A model generated the notes under the pieces. The model did no database searches and was not told where the DNA came from. It worked only from the letters and a program-made list of their open reading frames with translations. From contig JAGMCR010000003.1 of NCBI GenBank assembly GCA_023129115.1, forward strand, positions 1-64,000: DNA of 64,000 nucleotides. Reading direction: 5' to 3'. The translations under genes and the position numbers were made by a program. Source of the DNA: Candidatus Iainarchaeum sp. (GTDB taxonomy: Archaea > B1Sed10-29 > WALL01). Below are positions 26,708 to 37,442 of the stretch, piece after piece. The first letter of the stretch is position 1. Each line of letters begins with the position of its first letter.

Positions 26708-26922
26708 TTTAAGCCACCAATAGGCAAAACGGGACTGGGTTATTTAAGGTTAATGCAGATGGCTTGCTTGTGATGCACTTTAGCCCGTGGGCCAAGGGGG
26801 GGATATCAACAGACAAGGCCGGGGGAAGCAATGGGGGGGCTCGAGCTGGTGGCCACACCCAAATAGGCGGTTTGGCGGCGCGGCACGCGAAGTGGCCAAA
26901 CCAGGATATGCCTCAAAGCTCA

Positions 26923-26930
26923 TTTATATA
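26923..26930 (+). promoter_or_regulatory. TATA box suggesting a leaderless start at ATG 26953
   Basis: tttatata about 23 nt before in-frame ATG (MARRAPG...). Confidence 0.5.
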
Positions 26931-26952
26931 CATGAAGCTCTTTTTGTGTAGC

Positions 26953-29643
26953 ATGGCAAGGCGGGCCCCCGGGGCAGGGGTGGAAAAAAAGGGCGGCAAA
27001 AAGGCGGGGAAGGCCGTTGGGGTGCATAAAGCTGTTTTTGACAGTGTCACGGACGGCATTGTCGTGCTGGACAAGACCGGCAGGATAACCAAGATAAACA
27101 GGGCAATCACGCAGACTGGCGGGTACACTGAAAAAGACGTGGTGGGAACGCGCTTGGCTGCCCTGAAGATGTTCACCCCCGAGAGCCTTGCGAAGATGCT
27201 CGCGGCGTTCGCCAGGAGAGTGCTCGGGCAGGCCACGCCGCCTTACGCTGTCGAGCTGCGCACAAAAAAGGGAAAAACGATATTTGTTGAAATCCATGGC
27301 TCGCCCCTGCGGGAGGGCGGCAGAATAACCGGGAGCGTTGCCATACTCCGTGACATCACCAAGCGGAAGAAGGCAGAGGAAGCGCTGCGCGAGAGCGAAG
27401 AGAAGTTCAAGGACGTCACCGTGGCATCGGCTGACTGGGTGTGGGAGGTTGACAGGACCGGCAAGTACACTTACGCGTCAGGCAAGGTAAAGCAGATTTT
27501 GGGTTATACGCCTAAAGAGTTGTTGAGGCTGCACTTCTACGACCTAATGCCTAAAGACGAGGCCAAAAAGGCGATGGCGGAATTCAACGCCGCTCTTAAG
27601 ACGGGGGCGCCAATCGTTGACTTAGAGAACCTCAACCTCACGAAAGACGGTGGGGAAATATTCTTCCTCACGAACGGTGTCCCGATTTATGATGACAAAA
27701 GAAAGGTGGTTGGGTATCGCGGGGTTGACAAAGACATCACCGAGCGCAAGAAGGCAGAGGAGGCACTGAAAAAGAGCGAGGAGAGGTACAGGGGGTTGGT
27801 GGAGGGAACCGAGGCCGGGTTTTATACTGCTGCGCTGAACGGCGACGCGCTTTACGCCAGCAAATTCGTCGAGAGGATTGTGGAGGGGTTCAAGGCCGCG
27901 GAGTGGCGCAAGAAAGGGTTCTGGGCAGCCCGCATCCACCAGAACGACAGAAAGGCCGTGCTCAGGGAGTGGTCCAGGGGCGTCAAGTCAAAAAAGCCGT
28001 TCGTCCTGCAGTACCGGTTCGTGTGCAGGGACGGCACCCCAGTGTGGGTGGAGGACCACGCGTTCCCAAGCCCATCGAAGGACATGATTGAGGGGTTTAT
28101 CCTTGACATCACCGAACGCAAGAAGGCAGAGGAGCACCTGGCGCACATTGACTTGGTCCTGCGGGCGGTGCGCAACGTGAACCAGCTCATTGTAAGGGAG
28201 AAAAGCTCTGAGAAGCTGCTCAAAAGCGTTTGCGAGACACTTACCCGGGAACAGGGCTACAACAGCGCGTGGGCATGCCTTTTTGACGGGGGAAGCAAGC
28301 CTGTGATGGCTGCTGAGTCGGGGATTGGGACAAAGTTTAGCGCAATGGAAAAGCTGATGAAGAAGGGAAAGCTTACCAGGTGCGGGGAGAAAGCGCTGGG
28401 CCAAAACCGCGTTGTGGTCACTGAGGACCCGGCCAAGTCGTGCAGGGGCTGCCCGCTCCACTGTTTTTATGCGGGCAAAAACGCGTTGACCGTGCGCCTC
28501 GCGCACGGCGGCAGGACCTATGGCCTCCTTTCTGTGTCAGTGCCCGCGGCCATAGGCGTGGACAGGGAAGAGCAGTCGCTGTTCATGGAAGTCGCTGGAG
28601 ACATTTCCCTGGCGCTCCACTCTATTGAATTGGGGTCCAAGCGCGTGAAGGCAGCGGAAATGCTGCGCGAGAGCGAGGAAAAATACAAAGTGTTTTGGGA
28701 GAACACTGGCACAGCGATGTGCACCGTTGAGGCGGATAAAACTATTTCCTTCGCTAATGAGACCTTCAGTAAGCTATGCGGGTACACACTAAAAGAAATT
28801 GAGTGGAAAAAGAAGTGGACAGAGTTCGTGACCAAAGAGTACCTGAAAAGGATGGAGGAGTACCACACAGAAAGACGGAAGAAAGATGGCGAGGCGCCGA
28901 GCGAATACGAATTTGACTTTGTGGGCAAGAAGGGTGCCGTGAGAAAGGTTTTCCTTAGTGTCCAACTTATCCCGGGCACAAAAAAGTCCATCTGTTCGCT
29001 TATAGACATCACCGAGCGAAAAAAGGCAGAGGAAATGCTGCGAAAGGAAGACAAGCGCCTCGAAGGGCTTACGGCAGACCTATCCTTCCTCTACGAAGTA
29101 ACCAGCATTGCTTTTGCTGCAGAAACAGAGCAGGAACTGCTGGGCAAAGCACTGGAAGAGAGCTGCAGGGCGCTTGGCGCAGAACTTGGTATTGTGTGGA
29201 TGCATGACAAGGAACACGGGGAACTGGTCGCGCGCAAGTGCTTCGGCCTGACAGAGCAGGAATGCGCAGGCATGTCCATGAAGCCCGGTGAGGGGTGCGC
29301 TGGCAAGTCATTCCAGCGACGAGCCCCGCTTATCTCAACCAAGCGGCGGTTGAGGGGGTACAAGCCCACAACTTCTATTTGCGTCCCCCTGACAACTAAG
29401 GGGGGCACCATCGGCGTGGTGGAGGTGCTCTCGCTCTCAACCGAACTGGGGATGGGCGAACAACGGTTGCTCAAAATCGTGGCCGACCAGGTGAGCACAG
29501 CTATTAATGCCCTAAGGGCGCGGGGGGAACTGCAAAAATCCGTCAAGGAACTCAAGAAAATTAACAAGTTCCTTGTGGGAAGGGAAATGCGGATTATCGA
29601 ACTCAAAAACGAGGTGAAAGAGTTGAGGGATAAGTTAAAATAG
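26953..29643 (+). CDS. Multi PAS/GAF sensor protein without kinase domain
   Basis: PAS boxes each ending DITERKKAEE; GAF-like segments; ends in KFLVGREMRIIELKNEVKELRDKLK. Confidence 0.85.
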   Translation: MARRAPGAGVEKKGGKKAGKAVGVHKAVFDSVTDGIVVLDKTGRITKINRAITQTGGYTEKDVVGTRLAALKMFTPESLAKMLAAFARRVLGQATPPYAVELRTKKGKTIFVEIHGSPLREGGRITGSVAILRDITKRKKAEEALRESEEKFKDVTVASADWVWEVDRTGKYTYASGKVKQILGYTPKELLRLHFYDLMPKDEAKKAMAEFNAALKTGAPIVDLENLNLTKDGGEIFFLTNGVPIYDDKRKVVGYRGVDKDITERKKAEEALKKSEERYRGLVEGTEAGFYTAALNGDALYASKFVERIVEGFKAAEWRKKGFWAARIHQNDRKAVLREWSRGVKSKKPFVLQYRFVCRDGTPVWVEDHAFPSPSKDMIEGFILDITERKKAEEHLAHIDLVLRAVRNVNQLIVREKSSEKLLKSVCETLTREQGYNSAWACLFDGGSKPVMAAESGIGTKFSAMEKLMKKGKLTRCGEKALGQNRVVVTEDPAKSCRGCPLHCFYAGKNALTVRLAHGGRTYGLLSVSVPAAIGVDREEQSLFMEVAGDISLALHSIELGSKRVKAAEMLRESEEKYKVFWENTGTAMCTVEADKTISFANETFSKLCGYTLKEIEWKKKWTEFVTKEYLKRMEEYHTERRKKDGEAPSEYEFDFVGKKGAVRKVFLSVQLIPGTKKSICSLIDITERKKAEEMLRKEDKRLEGLTADLSFLYEVTSIAFAAETEQELLGKALEESCRALGAELGIVWMHDKEHGELVARKCFGLTEQECAGMSMKPGEGCAGKSFQRRAPLISTKRRLRGYKPTTSICVPLTTKGGTIGVVEVLSLSTELGMGEQRLLKIVADQVSTAINALRARGELQKSVKELKKINKFLVGREMRIIELKNEVKELRDKLK

Positions 29644-29673
29644 GCAAAAGAGTTAGTAGGAGGATAGGTTGAA

Positions 29674-30786
29674 ATGAAAGCAGGCGTGGGCATAAGCAAG
29701 AACAAAAACTCATTCAAAGCAGGTGAGGAAGCAGCAAAGCAGGCTGTGAAGGGCTCGGGCAAGCCCAACTTTGTGGTGGTGTTCAGCACAGAGCGCTTCC
29801 AGCAAAAACAATTGCTTTCAGGCATAAGGTCTGTCACAAGCAGTGCCAAGCTCGCCGGATGCTGCGGCGCAGGCGTTATAGCAGGAGAAGAGCTCAGCAA
29901 AGACGCTGTTGTGGTCATGGCAATGCGCGGCAGCCCGGCGAGCGTTGGCATCGGCAAGGGCATAAGCAAGGGCCCGCACGAGGCGGGAAGGGATTCTGTG
30001 GCAGGCCTCAAAAAGCCCGGCACAATAATCTTTTTGCCGGACGGCTTGACAGGCAACGTGACAAAAGTTGTGGCAGGCGCACATGAAACACTTGGGGCAG
30101 CCTACCGCCTCGTTGGCGGCGGGGCAGGCGACAACCTGAAGTTCATCAAGACGTACCAGTTCATCAATGATGAAGTGCACTCGGACGCCGTCGTGACTGC
30201 GCTGCTGGGCCAGAAAGTGGGGGTGGGCATAGCGCATGGCTGGACACCCATCGGCGAACCAATGATAGTGACAAAGGCAAAAGGCAACGTGGTGCACGAA
30301 ATCGATGGAAGGCCTGCGCTCGATGCCTACAAGAAGCAGTTCCCGGGCGACAGGATAAGCGCCAAGGGCTTTGCGAAATTCGCCGCGGAGCACCCGCTTG
30401 GCATGCCCCAGAGGACTGGCGAGTACTTAATCCGCGACCCGCTTATGGCAGAGAAAGATGGCAGCATCAAGTGCGTGGCCGAGGTGCCCGAGAACAGTGC
30501 TGTGCGCATCATGCAGGGCGACAAGCAATCCCTCATTGCAGCGGCCGAGCAAGCGGCCCGGCAGGCAATGGCGGGGGTGAAAAAGCCTGGCGCGCTGCTC
30601 GTGTTTGACTGCGTGTCGCGGCTGCTGTTCCTGGGCGATGACGCAAAAACAGAGGTAAAGGCAGTGAGGGATATTGTCGGCAACGTGCCAACAGCCGGGT
30701 TCTTCACGTTCGGCGAAGTTGGGTCCACTGCCGGCCCGCCAATGTTCCACAACAAGACAATCGTGGTGTGCGTGCTGCCGGAGTGA
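29674..30786 (+). CDS. FIST N/FIST C domain sensory protein
   Basis: GCCGAGVIAGEELSKDAVVVMAM, GGGAGDNLKF, GVGIAHGWTPIG, FGEVGSTAGPPMFHNKTIVV. Confidence 0.85.
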   Translation: MKAGVGISKNKNSFKAGEEAAKQAVKGSGKPNFVVVFSTERFQQKQLLSGIRSVTSSAKLAGCCGAGVIAGEELSKDAVVVMAMRGSPASVGIGKGISKGPHEAGRDSVAGLKKPGTIIFLPDGLTGNVTKVVAGAHETLGAAYRLVGGGAGDNLKFIKTYQFINDEVHSDAVVTALLGQKVGVGIAHGWTPIGEPMIVTKAKGNVVHEIDGRPALDAYKKQFPGDRISAKGFAKFAAEHPLGMPQRTGEYLIRDPLMAEKDGSIKCVAEVPENSAVRIMQGDKQSLIAAAEQAARQAMAGVKKPGALLVFDCVSRLLFLGDDAKTEVKAVRDIVGNVPTAGFFTFGEVGSTAGPPMFHNKTIVVCVLPE

Positions 30787-30834
30787 GTGGGATGAAGAAG
30801 CGGTCGGTTGCCACAGGGCTGGAGGAGATGCTTA

Positions 30835-31929
30835 GTGCTAAAGGTTAAACTCAGCGCCAAGCTGTTCGTGCTGTTCCTCCTGGTGTCAATCGTGCCCTTG
30901 TCCGTCGTCATGTTATTTGTGTTTGACTACGGGGAACGCGTAGAAAAAACCGCGCTGGAGCGCAGGCAGAAAATGATGGACACCGCCCTCAACGCCACGC
31001 AGAAGGCCCTGGCACAAGTAGGGGAAAAAGAGATAATGAGGATAGCGGCCTACGCCGCGTCTGGCATCACTACTTACCTGAGATACACCCCGGACGCGAC
31101 AATGGAAGAGCTGCAGGCGAGCGAGGAATTCCAGGGAATTGCGGTGCATCCTGTGGGTGAGACAGGGTACACTGCAGTCCACGACAGGAACGCTATAAAC
31201 TATTTTCATGTCAACCCCGGAATAATCGGGACAGACCTGCACGCACTCGAGGAAAAGCTGCCCGGGTTCTGGGCAGTGCTGTCAGCCAACCTGAATGGCA
31301 CAGAGTCAGCAGGCTACTATGAGTGGGAGGACGCTGACGGCGTCATCAGGGACAAGTACATGTGCTGCGTCGCGGTGGATGAGAGAGACTTGAGGGTGTG
31401 TGCCACGACTTACATGGACGAGTTCACGAAACCGCAGGAAGAGCTCGGGTTGGTGTTCGCAGAAGAGACTAGGAAGAGGACGGCTGAATATGCTGAAGAA
31501 AAAAGGCTGTTGGAGGGGACTATACTGCTCTTCTTTTTTGTTAGCGCCGCGTTCATCGTTCTGGCCTCGTTCCTGATAGCACGGGTCGTCACATCACCAC
31601 TCAAGAAACTGATGGCTGGCATGAAAAAATTCAGCCGCGGGGAGAGGAATAAGCGCGTCAAGCTGGATACCCGCGACGAGATTGGCGAGATGGCGGGAGT
31701 GTTCAACGAGATGGCTGGGGAAATCCAGTCCTACACAAAAAGGCTGGAGAGCACGGTCAAAGAGAGGACAAAGGAACTCGCCAAGAAGACGGTGGAGCAG
31801 GAAAAAGCGTTGGAGTCCCTGAAGAAGACGGCTAAGTTCTTGATTGGCAGGGAAGAAAGAATCATCGGGCTAAAGAAAAAGGTAAAAGAGCTCGAGAAAC
31901 AAGTGGAAGAGCTCAAGCAGGAGCGCTGA
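30835..31929 (+). CDS. Cache-HAMP membrane sensor without kinase, C-terminal coiled coil
   Basis: Two TM segments around an extracytoplasmic domain (GETGYTAV), HAMP segment, C-terminus KFLIGREERIIGLKKKVKELEKQVEELKQER. Confidence 0.78.
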   Translation: MLKVKLSAKLFVLFLLVSIVPLSVVMLFVFDYGERVEKTALERRQKMMDTALNATQKALAQVGEKEIMRIAAYAASGITTYLRYTPDATMEELQASEEFQGIAVHPVGETGYTAVHDRNAINYFHVNPGIIGTDLHALEEKLPGFWAVLSANLNGTESAGYYEWEDADGVIRDKYMCCVAVDERDLRVCATTYMDEFTKPQEELGLVFAEETRKRTAEYAEEKRLLEGTILLFFFVSAAFIVLASFLIARVVTSPLKKLMAGMKKFSRGERNKRVKLDTRDEIGEMAGVFNEMAGEIQSYTKRLESTVKERTKELAKKTVEQEKALESLKKTAKFLIGREERIIGLKKKVKELEKQVEELKQER

Positions 31930-31988
31930 CGCACAGAAAAGGGCTTAAATGCGCGGCGCTTATGGCTCAATCAGGAAACGGTGATGAA

Positions 31989-32954
31989 ATGAAGAAGCTA
32001 AAGGACACGCAACTTACTGGCCTCATGGCCGTGGTGCTGATAATCTCGATTGCGGCGCTGTTCCTCGGCGCAAGCGCGTACCTCAGGGAGCCGGCGCCCG
32101 CCACTGGCGTGCATCTCGCCGAGGCGCCTGCCGGGACAGTTGTCGAGGCATACGAGGGCCCGAAGTACACCGGGACCGGCACGGGCTACGTGATAGAGTT
32201 CGAGAACGGGAAGCGCCTGCACTTCGCCGGCGACACCGCGCTCATCAGCGACTTCAAGTTCGTCATCCGCGACCACTACCACCCGGACATTGGATTGTTC
32301 CCCGCCGACGGGTTCTACTGCATGGACTCGAAGCTGGCGGCTGTCGCGGCCTCGTGGGTGAACCCAGAGTACGCAATCCCTTACCACTACGGCACTTTCC
32401 CGGAGATGCCGCCGAACCCGGAAGAGTTTGTGGCGGCGCTGGACGAGCTGAGGCTCAACAACGAGACCCGGGCAAAGCCGTTCATAGCAGAGCCGGGGAT
32501 TGAGTGGGAGATTGAGGGAATCAGGGGGACCTGGCTCGGCCACGGCTCCTACTTCTTTGTGTCGCCCGGCGGAGTCAGGATTCTTGTTGACCCGTGGCTG
32601 GAGGCGAACCCAATGTGCCCAGCCAAGTTCAAGGACATTGAGCACTTCAGGGAGGCCTACGGCGACATCGACTTAGTGCTCCTGACGCACGGGCACGTCG
32701 ACCACTTCACCATTGGCGAGCTGATAAAAATTTGGGACGCCTACGAGCCAGTGGTAATCGCGCAGTGGGAGCTTGGCGGCTACATCGCCACAGAAAGTGA
32801 TATGCCTGTCTGCCTGATAAACAAGGGCGGAATCGTCACAAAGGAAAAGATATTGCTGCAGGGGATTGTCCCGCCAGAGATAGTCAACGCCAAGAAGCTT
32901 GACGGCATAAAAATAATGATGGTGCAGGCAGAGCACAGCTCTTCCCCGCCATAA
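31989..32954 (+). CDS. Membrane-anchored MBL-fold (UlaG-like) hydrolase with circularly permuted motif order
   Basis: TM N-terminus; order GYVIEFENGKRLHFAGDTAL..IPYHYGTFP then TWLGHGSYFFVSPGGVRILVDPWLEANPMCP..LLTHGHVDHF..VQAEHSSSPP*. Confidence 0.85.
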   Translation: MKKLKDTQLTGLMAVVLIISIAALFLGASAYLREPAPATGVHLAEAPAGTVVEAYEGPKYTGTGTGYVIEFENGKRLHFAGDTALISDFKFVIRDHYHPDIGLFPADGFYCMDSKLAAVAASWVNPEYAIPYHYGTFPEMPPNPEEFVAALDELRLNNETRAKPFIAEPGIEWEIEGIRGTWLGHGSYFFVSPGGVRILVDPWLEANPMCPAKFKDIEHFREAYGDIDLVLLTHGHVDHFTIGELIKIWDAYEPVVIAQWELGGYIATESDMPVCLINKGGIVTKEKILLQGIVPPEIVNAKKLDGIKIMMVQAEHSSSPP

Positions 32955-32967
32955 GCGGTGACTTGGA

Positions 32968-34569
32968 TTGGTAAGGCTTCTCTTCAGGCACAAGGTCACC
33001 ACAACATTTTGCGTCCTGCTGGTGTTCGCCGTCGCGTCTGTCACATACATGACAATTAGCACGCAGCAGGCGCAGCTTATGGCCAACCTAATCGATGCGA
33101 GGCTGTCAGAGGCAAAGATTATAGCGATGAGCGTTTCGTCGGCAGAAGTGAACTTTTCCCCTGCACACAAGCGCACCATAATCAAGGAGATGGGGATTGG
33201 GAAAGGCATTGTTTATTGCAGGCTGGTGAAGCCAAGCGGCGAAATATTCAGCTCAAGCATTCCTGCCGAGCATGGGCTGTTCATCGATGACCCTGCAACC
33301 TTCGCGGCCGAGCCAGTCGTCATCGACGACGTGTGGGAGGGGCAGCGGATTAAGGCCGCGGTCGCGCCAAGCTACCGCGGCTACACGGTTTGGGTTGGCT
33401 TCTCCACCGAGGAAGTCGGGAAAGCCGTGTCAGGAATGGTTTTGTACAACGTGCTCCTTGCTTTGGCCATTGTTGGCGTGGGGGCGGTTGTCTCGTTCTT
33501 CCTCGCCCAGAAGCTAACCCACCCAATCGACGAGCTTGGCGAAGGGGTCATAGCGATTGGCGAGGGCAATATGGGCCACAGGGTGCGCGTCATGTCGCAC
33601 GACGAACTTGGCGACCTGGCACGGGCGTTCAACTGGATGAGCGAACACTTGGAGCAGAGCAAGGCAGGGCTGGAAAAAACTGTGGAGGGGCGGACGGAGG
33701 AACTCACCACGAAGTCGGGAAAGCTCGAGAAGACCGTGGAAGAGCTTGAACAGATGCGCGCCGCCATGGAGAGCGTGATGGAAGACCTTTCCGAGGCGAA
33801 CGAGGGCCTGGAGCACGCGGATGAGATGCGCGAGGCCTTCCTCAGAAACATTGCACACGAGCTCAAGACCCCAATAACCATCATGAAATTGGACATAGAG
33901 CGCCTAATAAAAAGGGAGCGCAAAAAAGTCAAGCCGTACAAGGGGACCAAGGCCATCGGCCAAATGGACAACATAGAAATAATGGAAGACATTTTGGGTG
34001 GGACTGACAGGTTCAGTGTGACAGTCAAGAAAATACTCCACCTCTCGCGCCTCGAGGCTGGCGCAGTCGTGTACACCAAGCACATGCACAGCCCAGAAAA
34101 AATAGTTGATGGCGTGCTGGAGGAGTACCATCCACTTGCAAAGGGGCAGGGCCTATACCTCAAGGAAAAGCTGGGGAAATTGCCAAAAGTCTTTGTGGAC
34201 AGGGAGCAAATAGAGGAAGTCTTCCACAACTTAATCGGCAACGCAATAAAGTTCACCGAGGAGGGGGGCGTGACAGTCAGTGCCATGAAAGCCGGGGAGT
34301 ACGTGCGCTTCGAGGTGGAGGACACAGGCATTGGCATACCCCCAGACGCAATCCCGCACCTATTCACCAAGTTCTTCCAGGTCAGCAGCGGCCTGGCGCG
34401 CACCGCGCCTGGCACGGGCCTGGGCCTCGCGATATCCAAGGCCACTGTCGAGGCGCACGGGGGGAAGATTTGGGTTGAAAGCGAGTATGGCAAGGGCAGT
34501 AAGTTTATATTCATCTTGCCCATAGGTAAAGGGGCGGGCAAGCGCCCAGCAAAAAAGAGGGGGGGCTAA
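32968..34569 (+). CDS. Membrane histidine kinase (sensor domain, HAMP, HisKA, HATPase)
   Basis: FLRNIAHELKTPITIM; NLIGNAIKFTEEGG; DTGIGIPPDAI; GTGLGLAI. Confidence 0.92.
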   Translation: MVRLLFRHKVTTTFCVLLVFAVASVTYMTISTQQAQLMANLIDARLSEAKIIAMSVSSAEVNFSPAHKRTIIKEMGIGKGIVYCRLVKPSGEIFSSSIPAEHGLFIDDPATFAAEPVVIDDVWEGQRIKAAVAPSYRGYTVWVGFSTEEVGKAVSGMVLYNVLLALAIVGVGAVVSFFLAQKLTHPIDELGEGVIAIGEGNMGHRVRVMSHDELGDLARAFNWMSEHLEQSKAGLEKTVEGRTEELTTKSGKLEKTVEELEQMRAAMESVMEDLSEANEGLEHADEMREAFLRNIAHELKTPITIMKLDIERLIKRERKKVKPYKGTKAIGQMDNIEIMEDILGGTDRFSVTVKKILHLSRLEAGAVVYTKHMHSPEKIVDGVLEEYHPLAKGQGLYLKEKLGKLPKVFVDREQIEEVFHNLIGNAIKFTEEGGVTVSAMKAGEYVRFEVEDTGIGIPPDAIPHLFTKFFQVSSGLARTAPGTGLGLAISKATVEAHGGKIWVESEYGKGSKFIFILPIGKGAGKRPAKKRGG

Positions 34570-34573
34570 GCAA

Positions 34574-34939
34574 ATGAAGGTAATGATTGTCGAGGACGAG
34601 CCGGATGTCGCGAAAGCAATCAAGGGCGTGCTCGTGGACGAAGGATTTGGGGTGGAGATAGCCCTCGGCGGCAAGGATTGCCTGGAGAAGCTGAAGAAAA
34701 GCGAGCCGGACGTCATCCTTCTCGACATACTCATGCCCATAATGGACGGCACAGAAGTCCTGCGGCGGCTGAAGAAGGACAAGAAGACCGCGAAAATCCC
34801 GGTGATTGTGCTCACAGCTGTTTCTGCCGAGTCAGAGGTCAAGAAAACGCTTGAGGAAATCGACCCCAAGATTGGGTTCATCGAAAAGCCGTACAGCATC
34901 GACCAGATACTCGCGGAGATAAAGAAGCTCGTGAAATAA
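34574..34939 (+). CDS. Response regulator receiver domain protein
   Basis: MIVEDEPDVAKAIKG...VILLDILMPIMDG...VIVLTA...FIEKPY. Confidence 0.92.
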   Translation: MKVMIVEDEPDVAKAIKGVLVDEGFGVEIALGGKDCLEKLKKSEPDVILLDILMPIMDGTEVLRRLKKDKKTAKIPVIVLTAVSAESEVKKTLEEIDPKIGFIEKPYSIDQILAEIKKLVK

Positions 34940-36881: not shown

Positions 36882-37442
36882 TTAAAGCACTACCGGCGGC
36901 CCATGGCCAGGCAAAAGAATGGAGTAGCCGAGGCCGCGGAGCAATGCGAGGGATTTTTCCATTGCGTTTTCGTCGCCGCCGGGAAGGTCGGTTCTTCCGA
37001 AGCCGTCGGCGAACAGGGTGTCGCCGCTGATTAGTATGTTGCCTTTATGGAGGCAGATGGAGCCGGCGGTGTGGCCCGGCGTGTGGATGACAGCCCAGCC
37101 GTGGAATTCTTTGCCGAGCGGCTGGGGGGTTGAGCCAGAGAGTTTTTCTCCGAACATTCCTGAAGCAGTATACTCGGGATCGGCCTTGGCCAGGTAGGGC
37201 AGGTCTGCTCCGTGGATGTATACAGGACAAGAAAAATACTTGTTGCCGCCGACGTGGTCGAAGTGGCAGTGCGTGTTCACGATTGCGTCGATGGGGTGGC
37301 CCGCGAGCTCTTTCTTCAAGTAGTCGATGTTTTCCCCGGTGCCGGTGTCCACGAGGAAAGTGACGTCAGAGACAACGAGGATTGAGTTCGAGTCGTAGCC
37401 GCGGCCGGGGACGAAGTAGACCGAGTCAGTGATTTTGTCCAT
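36882..37442 (-). CDS. MBL-fold hydrolase (glyoxalase II-like)
   Basis: NTHCHFDHVGG, HTPGHTAGSICL, SGDTLFADGFGRTDLPGG, LPGHGP. Confidence 0.9.
   Translation of the reverse strand: MDKITDSVYFVPGRGYDSNSILVVSDVTFLVDTGTGENIDYLKKELAGHPIDAIVNTHCHFDHVGGNKYFSCPVYIHGADLPYLAKADPEYTASGMFGEKLSGSTPQPLGKEFHGWAVIHTPGHTAGSICLHKGNILISGDTLFADGFGRTDLPGGDENAMEKSLALLRGLGYSILLPGHGPPVVL

Follow-up and report, generated by a model that had tools for sequence, protein, structure and literature searches.

The question raised by this locus is whether a gene that encodes the two halves of an MBL-fold hydrolase in reverse order makes a genuine protein, and what such a protein would do next to a sensor gene. The gene, here called cpMBL, lies in the window (the whole 64 kb stretch of DNA that was analysed), which belongs to an archaeal draft genome of 1.25 Mb in 19 contigs. 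RadA and replication factor A homologues are found in the window at 37–40 kb, and a second, unrelated MBL-fold protein, similar to hydroxyacylglutathione hydrolase and in canonical order, is encoded at 36882–37442 (−). The gene and its parts are as follows.

31989–32954 (+): cpMBL, a circularly permuted, predicted membrane-anchored UPF0173/UlaG-like MBL-fold protein of 321 aa, assigned by motif order, Pfam and NCBIfam matches and eight permuted homologues
32022–32078 (+): single N-terminal TM helix (residues 12–30), predicted N-in/C-out, with an invariant Ser20 inside it
32166–32519 (+): first half (residues 60–177), equal to the canonical C-terminal half, with the AGDT ligand D82 and the HYG ligand H133; NF001911 positions 117–214; Igni18 D144 and H194
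32496–32540 (+): junction at which the old C-terminus runs into the old N-terminus (residues 170–184), equivalent to β14-turn-β1, placed by model strands and the Igni18 sheet order
32520–32951 (+): last half (residues 178–321), equal to the canonical N-terminal half, with WLGHGS (H185), HGHVDH (H234/H236/D238/H239), E261 and EHSS (H316)
32934–32954 (+): new C-terminus, the permutation breakpoint, right after ligand H316, placed by mapping to Igni18 H118 and PVR5 (117–126)

The motifs occur once each, in the order AGDT (D82), HYG (H133), WLGHGS (H185), HGHVDH (H234, H236, D238, H239) and EHSS (H316). Coordinates, frame and motif order are thus as first described in a sequence-only reading of this DNA, and the ligand set is intact. 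There is an alternative in-frame ATG at 31962; the start at 31989 has an upstream GGTGA and agrees with the homologues. The canonical order of the family (WLGH – HxHxDH – HSS – AGDT – HYG) is found neither in the window protein nor in its eight homologues, all of which have the halves inverted, and for this reason cpMBL is classed as a permuted variant and not as an ordinary UPF0173/UlaG-like member.

Profile searches gave the same picture. PF13483 matches cpMBL with 64.6 bits in two inverted pieces, and the half-swapped sequence with 71.7 bits in a single stretch (3–160 of 160); for PF12706 the values are 48.6 bits in two pieces and 59.0 bits in a single stretch (2–200 of 200). The comparison of natural and half-swapped sequence that had been suggested therefore fuses both Pfam matches into single stretches, and the claim of a clean circular permutation holds: the swap gives one full-length match, and the same order is present in eight other genomes. 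NF001911 (UPF0173/PRK00685, curated cut-off 144 bits) scores 148.2 bits in the natural order, as two pieces with profile positions 117–214 first, and 161.5 bits after the swap. Two of the homologues also exceed the cut-off (L032 at 178.1 and L033 at 154.6 bits), while L003 at 122.5 falls below it. Because family searches return an ordinary metal-dependent hydrolase in two pieces, existing annotation hides cpMBL. A profile built in the natural order matches its eight source permuted proteins in one piece at about 400–540 bits, and its match to every full-length canonical relative breaks into two pieces in reverse order; the half-swapped profile behaves the opposite way. The ninth permuted protein, L104, was matched in one piece at 162 bits by a profile built without it.

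The draft state of the window genome, with its 19 contigs, might suggest an assembly chimera, or decay into fragments that only look like a permutation. We regard either as having a negligible chance of being correct, since eight further genomes, each assembled independently and one a single contig that is 98% complete, carry the same order in one uninterrupted frame, which shows that the order is real and not the product of chance or misassembly. Decay is equally at odds with the absence of remnants: in a six-frame search of the whole 64 kb each half-profile matches once, both times inside cpMBL, as the sequence-only reading had proposed in finding no leftover halves. Misassembly, which that reading had named as a way in which it could fail, and decay are ruled out by nine genomes with one frame each. 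No canonical UPF0173 gene was found elsewhere in the genome, where a weak match (G000:C18) has no NCBIfam match.

A search of public genomes for homologues with the same order, as had been proposed, yielded eight genomes: four of ANME-1, two nanohaloarchaeon-like and two CPR-like, against 76 canonical relatives with their halves in the usual order. Their proteins have the same N-terminal helix and are 29–47% identical to the window protein. Within the window's phylum, cpMBL is found in the window genome alone among 19 genomes, and the ANME-1 proteins are found in 4 of the 53 genomes of the order of L032 (‘Methanophagales archaeon’). The two nanohaloarchaeon-like proteins come from an archaeal phylum of 28 genomes, and both CPR-like proteins from one class of small-genome bacteria; the names nanohaloarchaea and CPR/Patescibacteria are our probable assignments for these four genomes. 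No permuted match was found in IMG/VR scans, in phages or in a plasmid search, and a search against viral folds had no match at E ≤ 0.001, so that these searches point to neither a viral nor a plasmid vehicle. The clear conclusion is that cpMBL is a real protein family, recurring in distant archaea and bacteria, and apparently an undescribed one.

Trees of half-swapped sequences were calculated with eight permuted proteins (L104 was found later). Without long-branch rows, the eight form one clade with support 100/99. One canonical, highly divergent UPF0173 protein, L080 (3874 onward; Proteobacteria MAG LacPavin), adjoins the permuted clade in one tree; this placement could be a long-branch artefact or possibly marks a sister of the clade. 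With this neighbour present the support for the clade becomes 92/0, and the drop of SH-aLRT to 0 could be read as a sign that the permuted order arose repeatedly, or by fusion of separately encoded halves, instead of by one event of tandem duplication and trimming. We consider this very improbable, given the single clade at 100/99 and a breakpoint and N-terminal helix that all nine proteins share.

The active site can be compared directly with that of Igni18, whose zinc ligands are H54, H56, D58, H59, H118, D144 and H194 (PMC7846560). In the alignment these correspond to cpMBL H234, H236, D238, H239, H316, D82 and H133 respectively, and all seven, the five His and two Asp of the two-metal set, are invariant in the nine permuted proteins. 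H185 and E261 are also invariant in all nine, and are equivalent to His8 and Glu73' of TM1162, which are second-sphere residues, the Glu73' being contributed by the neighbouring subunit (PMC7846560). The breakpoint falls between H118 and T127/G128 of Igni18, within PVR5 (117–126), a mobile trimer-interface loop adjoining the active site (PMC7846560). UPF0173 proteins form a homotrimer with a trans-subunit Glu near the metal site; in cpMBL the equivalent Glu (E261) is invariant, but the interface loop itself is cut.

One sheet of Igni18 consists of β14 and β1–β6, and the other of β7–β13 (PMC7846560). Given this arrangement, our mapping indicates that the cut parts the two halves at the β6/β7 boundary, and that the fusion connects β14 to its neighbour β1. 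At the fusion, the AlphaFold2 model of cpMBL, calculated from an eight-sequence alignment and of moderate confidence (pLDDT 78.6, pTM 0.75), has strands at 172–175 and 178–184 with a tight turn between them. Foldseek, which depends on chain order, superposes roughly 110 residues of the model on TM1162 (227 residues) at 1.7 Å, the half-length match that is expected for a permuted chain. Fold closure, another point on which the sequence-only reading could have failed, is checked in part by these results, and cpMBL may close into one alpha-beta/beta-alpha fold. It is worth adding that 7E3W, a solved relative, was deposited with bound cAMP, which we take as a lead only.

The N-terminal TM segment that had been recognised in the ORF has a hydropathy of 2.57 and a net charge of +2 before it. 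A hydrophobic N-terminal segment is present in all nine permuted proteins, preceded by net positive residues in eight, and Ser20 within the helix is invariant in the nine. Since positive charge precedes the hydrophobic segment, the MBL domain probably lies outside the cytoplasm (N-in/C-out). Export as such would not be new in the family, as a hydrophobic extension at the N-terminus is found in 6 of the 76 canonical relatives too.

The genes around cpMBL are the following.

30808–31929 (+): kinase-less Cache-like/HAMP membrane protein, upstream of cpMBL and not a conserved partner (HAMP-only match)
32968–34569 (+): membrane histidine kinase with Cache/PAS-like ectodomain, HAMP, HisKA and HATPase, 13 bp downstream of cpMBL
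34574–34939 (+): response regulator receiver protein, separated from the kinase gene by 4 bp

Directly downstream of cpMBL, on the same strand, each of the nine genomes has a gene for a membrane sensor. The gaps are 13 bp in the window, 11, 6, 14 and 14 bp in ANME-1, 34 and 8 bp in the CPR-like genomes and 57 and 47 bp in the nanohaloarchaeon-like ones. The partners are six histidine kinases, one HAMP protein without a kinase (L104) and two membrane proteins without a Pfam match. By comparison, a kinase occurs anywhere in the examined stretch (median 5.5 kb) at 3 of 76 canonical loci, and as the adjacent downstream gene at none, in a control that has related sequences on both sides and used a home-made kinase/HAMP profile which also misses the two nanohaloarchaeon-like partners. 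The signalling or envelope role first suggested from the position of the gene thus stands as regards a signalling neighbourhood and becomes more precise: the partner that is conserved is the downstream membrane sensor, and not the upstream Cache-HAMP gene, which resembles the sensor family in HAMP alone and was rejected.

The window kinase has its ectodomain in common with the four ANME-1 and two CPR-like partners (7 of 9 with the window), on output modules that differ. Pfam has no family for this ectodomain, and it was not detected in the partners of the two nanohaloarchaeon-like genomes. These last two proteins (L095 1468–2517 (−) and L096 8487–9539 (+)), which have no Pfam match, are similar to each other by eye and have a C-terminal cytoplasmic domain of unrecognised kind. 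A model of the shared ectodomain, of low confidence (pLDDT 65, pTM 0.48), resembles the Cache/PAS ectodomains of WalK, CitA and KinD, with WalK providing the top solved structures. Members of the sensor family are also found where there is no cpMBL; on the sensor's side, then, the pairing is optional.

What stands before the other sensors is informative. In ANME-1 a sensor profile gives the kinases of the four cpMBL loci about 260 bits, and seven more distant sensors 59–71 bits. Four of these seven are preceded by the gene of a FIST-domain protein, and one by that of an anchored CARDB/DUF3344 protein; a sensor in a further archaeon (G091) has no partner of the cpMBL, FIST or CARDB type. The three FIST proteins with a complete 5' end have an N-terminal membrane segment or a lipobox-like start, and the fourth gene is cut by the contig end. 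FIST is a ligand-sensing domain, and cpMBL therefore occupies the position of an extracytoplasmic sensory protein of related receptors.

The secreted or membrane-anchored FIST-domain proteins placed directly before HAMP/PAS sensors in ANME-1 (L119, L121, L122, L123) deserve mention in their own right, as a FIST protein outside the cytoplasm may be unusual in itself. The window has a FIST protein too, with a weak NosP-like match and no membrane segment seen, within a signalling cluster that runs in one direction at 26764–34939 (+): a kinase-less multi-PAS/GAF protein, FIST, the kinase-less Cache-like/HAMP protein, cpMBL, the histidine kinase and the response regulator. A C-terminal coiled-coil that ends roughly in GRE-R-I/M-x-ELK is common to kinase-less PAS/HAMP sensor proteins (window 29550–29640 and 31830–31926; L104 515–600; L124 1723–1900) and might be a shared motif for output or for the docking of separate kinases.

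Taken together, we propose that cpMBL is a natural circular permutant acting as a tethered extracytoplasmic metallo-hydrolase that serves the adjacent receptor as an accessory sensor or as a signal-processing enzyme, and we put the probability of this at roughly 0.7. The chain would have been opened in the active-site/trimer-interface loop, just past the His that is the fifth metal ligand, and its former ends joined where β14 and β1 adjoin, so that the half-domains would have swapped order as whole units. The new N-terminus, bearing one TM helix, would keep the domain out of the cytoplasm and tether it near the active-site mouth; entering beside the active-site loop, the tether would bring the metal site close to both membrane and receptor. 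As all ligands are retained, cpMBL most likely binds or hydrolyses a small extracellular molecule at its two-metal site and in this way alters receptor output, either by making or removing a ligand of the Cache/PAS-like ectodomain or through contact between membrane helices. The inverted order, the single clade, the invariant ligands, the N-terminal hydrophobic segment and the gene pairing are direct observations, while fold closure, topology, catalysis, the signal and the partnership with the receptor are deductions; neighbouring genes do not in themselves establish an interaction.

The same intact ligands would also suit a stand-alone extracytoplasmic hydrolase (of phosphodiesters, lactones or lipids, for example) that is merely co-expressed with the sensor and perceives no signal. 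The canonical relatives are promiscuous hydrolases, with esterase, phosphodiesterase, lactamase and other activities reported for Igni18 (PMC7846560), and the six canonical UPF0173 proteins with a hydrophobic N-terminus have no adjacent downstream kinase. We nevertheless think this unlikely: the receptor gene follows immediately in all nine genomes over very distant lineages, the ectodomain is kept across unlike output modules with and without a kinase, and a secreted FIST sensor protein takes the same position in other ANME-1 genomes. An involvement with the receptor could go to the other extreme, with the metal site serving as a non-catalytic metal or ligand sensor and cpMBL as a pure receptor subunit, like YycH/YycI in role. 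Its position and architecture do resemble those of the membrane-anchored WalK accessory proteins (PMC5013275), and WalK heads the solved-structure matches of the partner ectodomain. This is rather doubtful all the same, because seven ligands and both second-sphere residues are strictly kept over very distant lineages, as is expected from catalysis, while a pure binder usually drifts. Returning to the tethered hydrolase, a bolder and more tentative form of the proposal, to which we would give somewhat short of even odds, is that these are the first natural circular permutants of the MBL superfamily, kept in archaea and in bacteria since the permuted order allows the tether to enter at the active-site mouth and makes the protein a catalytic co-receptor that passes a converted extracellular signal to a Cache/PAS-type receptor.

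Few enzyme folds have been studied as much as the MBL fold, and here is a natural circular permutant for which no description was found. The order could have proved standard for a described subfamily, as the sequence-only reading allowed; a full-text search of an open-access library turned up no description of an MBL-fold protein with permuted order, with subscription papers and domain databases such as CDD and ECOD outside its scope, so that priority is not proven. As it is conserved in very distant lineages with a breakpoint that separates the halves, cpMBL is a natural test of whether the halves of the fold are exchangeable units. It also offers a concrete, testable gene pair, a putative membrane-tethered metallo-hydrolase and a membrane receptor, in genomes about whose signals little is known (ANME-1, nanohaloarchaeon-like and CPR-like).

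Several known systems bear comparison. The ascorbate-context MBL family has the superfamily and a broad motif set in common with cpMBL, which differs in order and has no ascorbate context; the model of that family gave a weak match to L032 and L003 only, at about 20 bits against a cut-off of 306. The secreted FIST proteins of ANME-1 are likewise encoded just before a sensor whose ectodomain is related, and where their 5' ends are complete they too begin with a membrane segment or a lipobox-like start, but their fold (FIST_N/FIST_C) is unrelated. YycH and YycI are membrane-tethered accessory proteins in complex with WalK (PMC5013275) and, like cpMBL, are membrane-anchored, with genes next to that of a kinase that has a Cache/PAS-type ectodomain. 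Their arrangement of a single N-terminal helix and an outside domain beside a kinase with a WalK-type ectodomain is also that of cpMBL, as far as a low-confidence ectodomain model and an ‘outside’ placement deduced from charge allow. They are not metallo-hydrolases. The cpMBL domain is MBL-fold by Pfam, and the parallel is in how they may work, with no homology claimed. The closest system is UPF0173/PRK00685 (NF001911; TM1162, 3X2Z; Igni18, 6HRG; 7E3V/7E3W), which is like cpMBL in the sequence of both halves and has in common with it the full set of seven metal ligands, as well as the second-sphere His and the Glu from the neighbouring subunit; cpMBL differs from it in the inverted halves, the breakpoint in PVR5, the N-terminal membrane helix and the sensor linkage. 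We rate the fold and the family as known, and the chain order and the membrane and signalling context as new.
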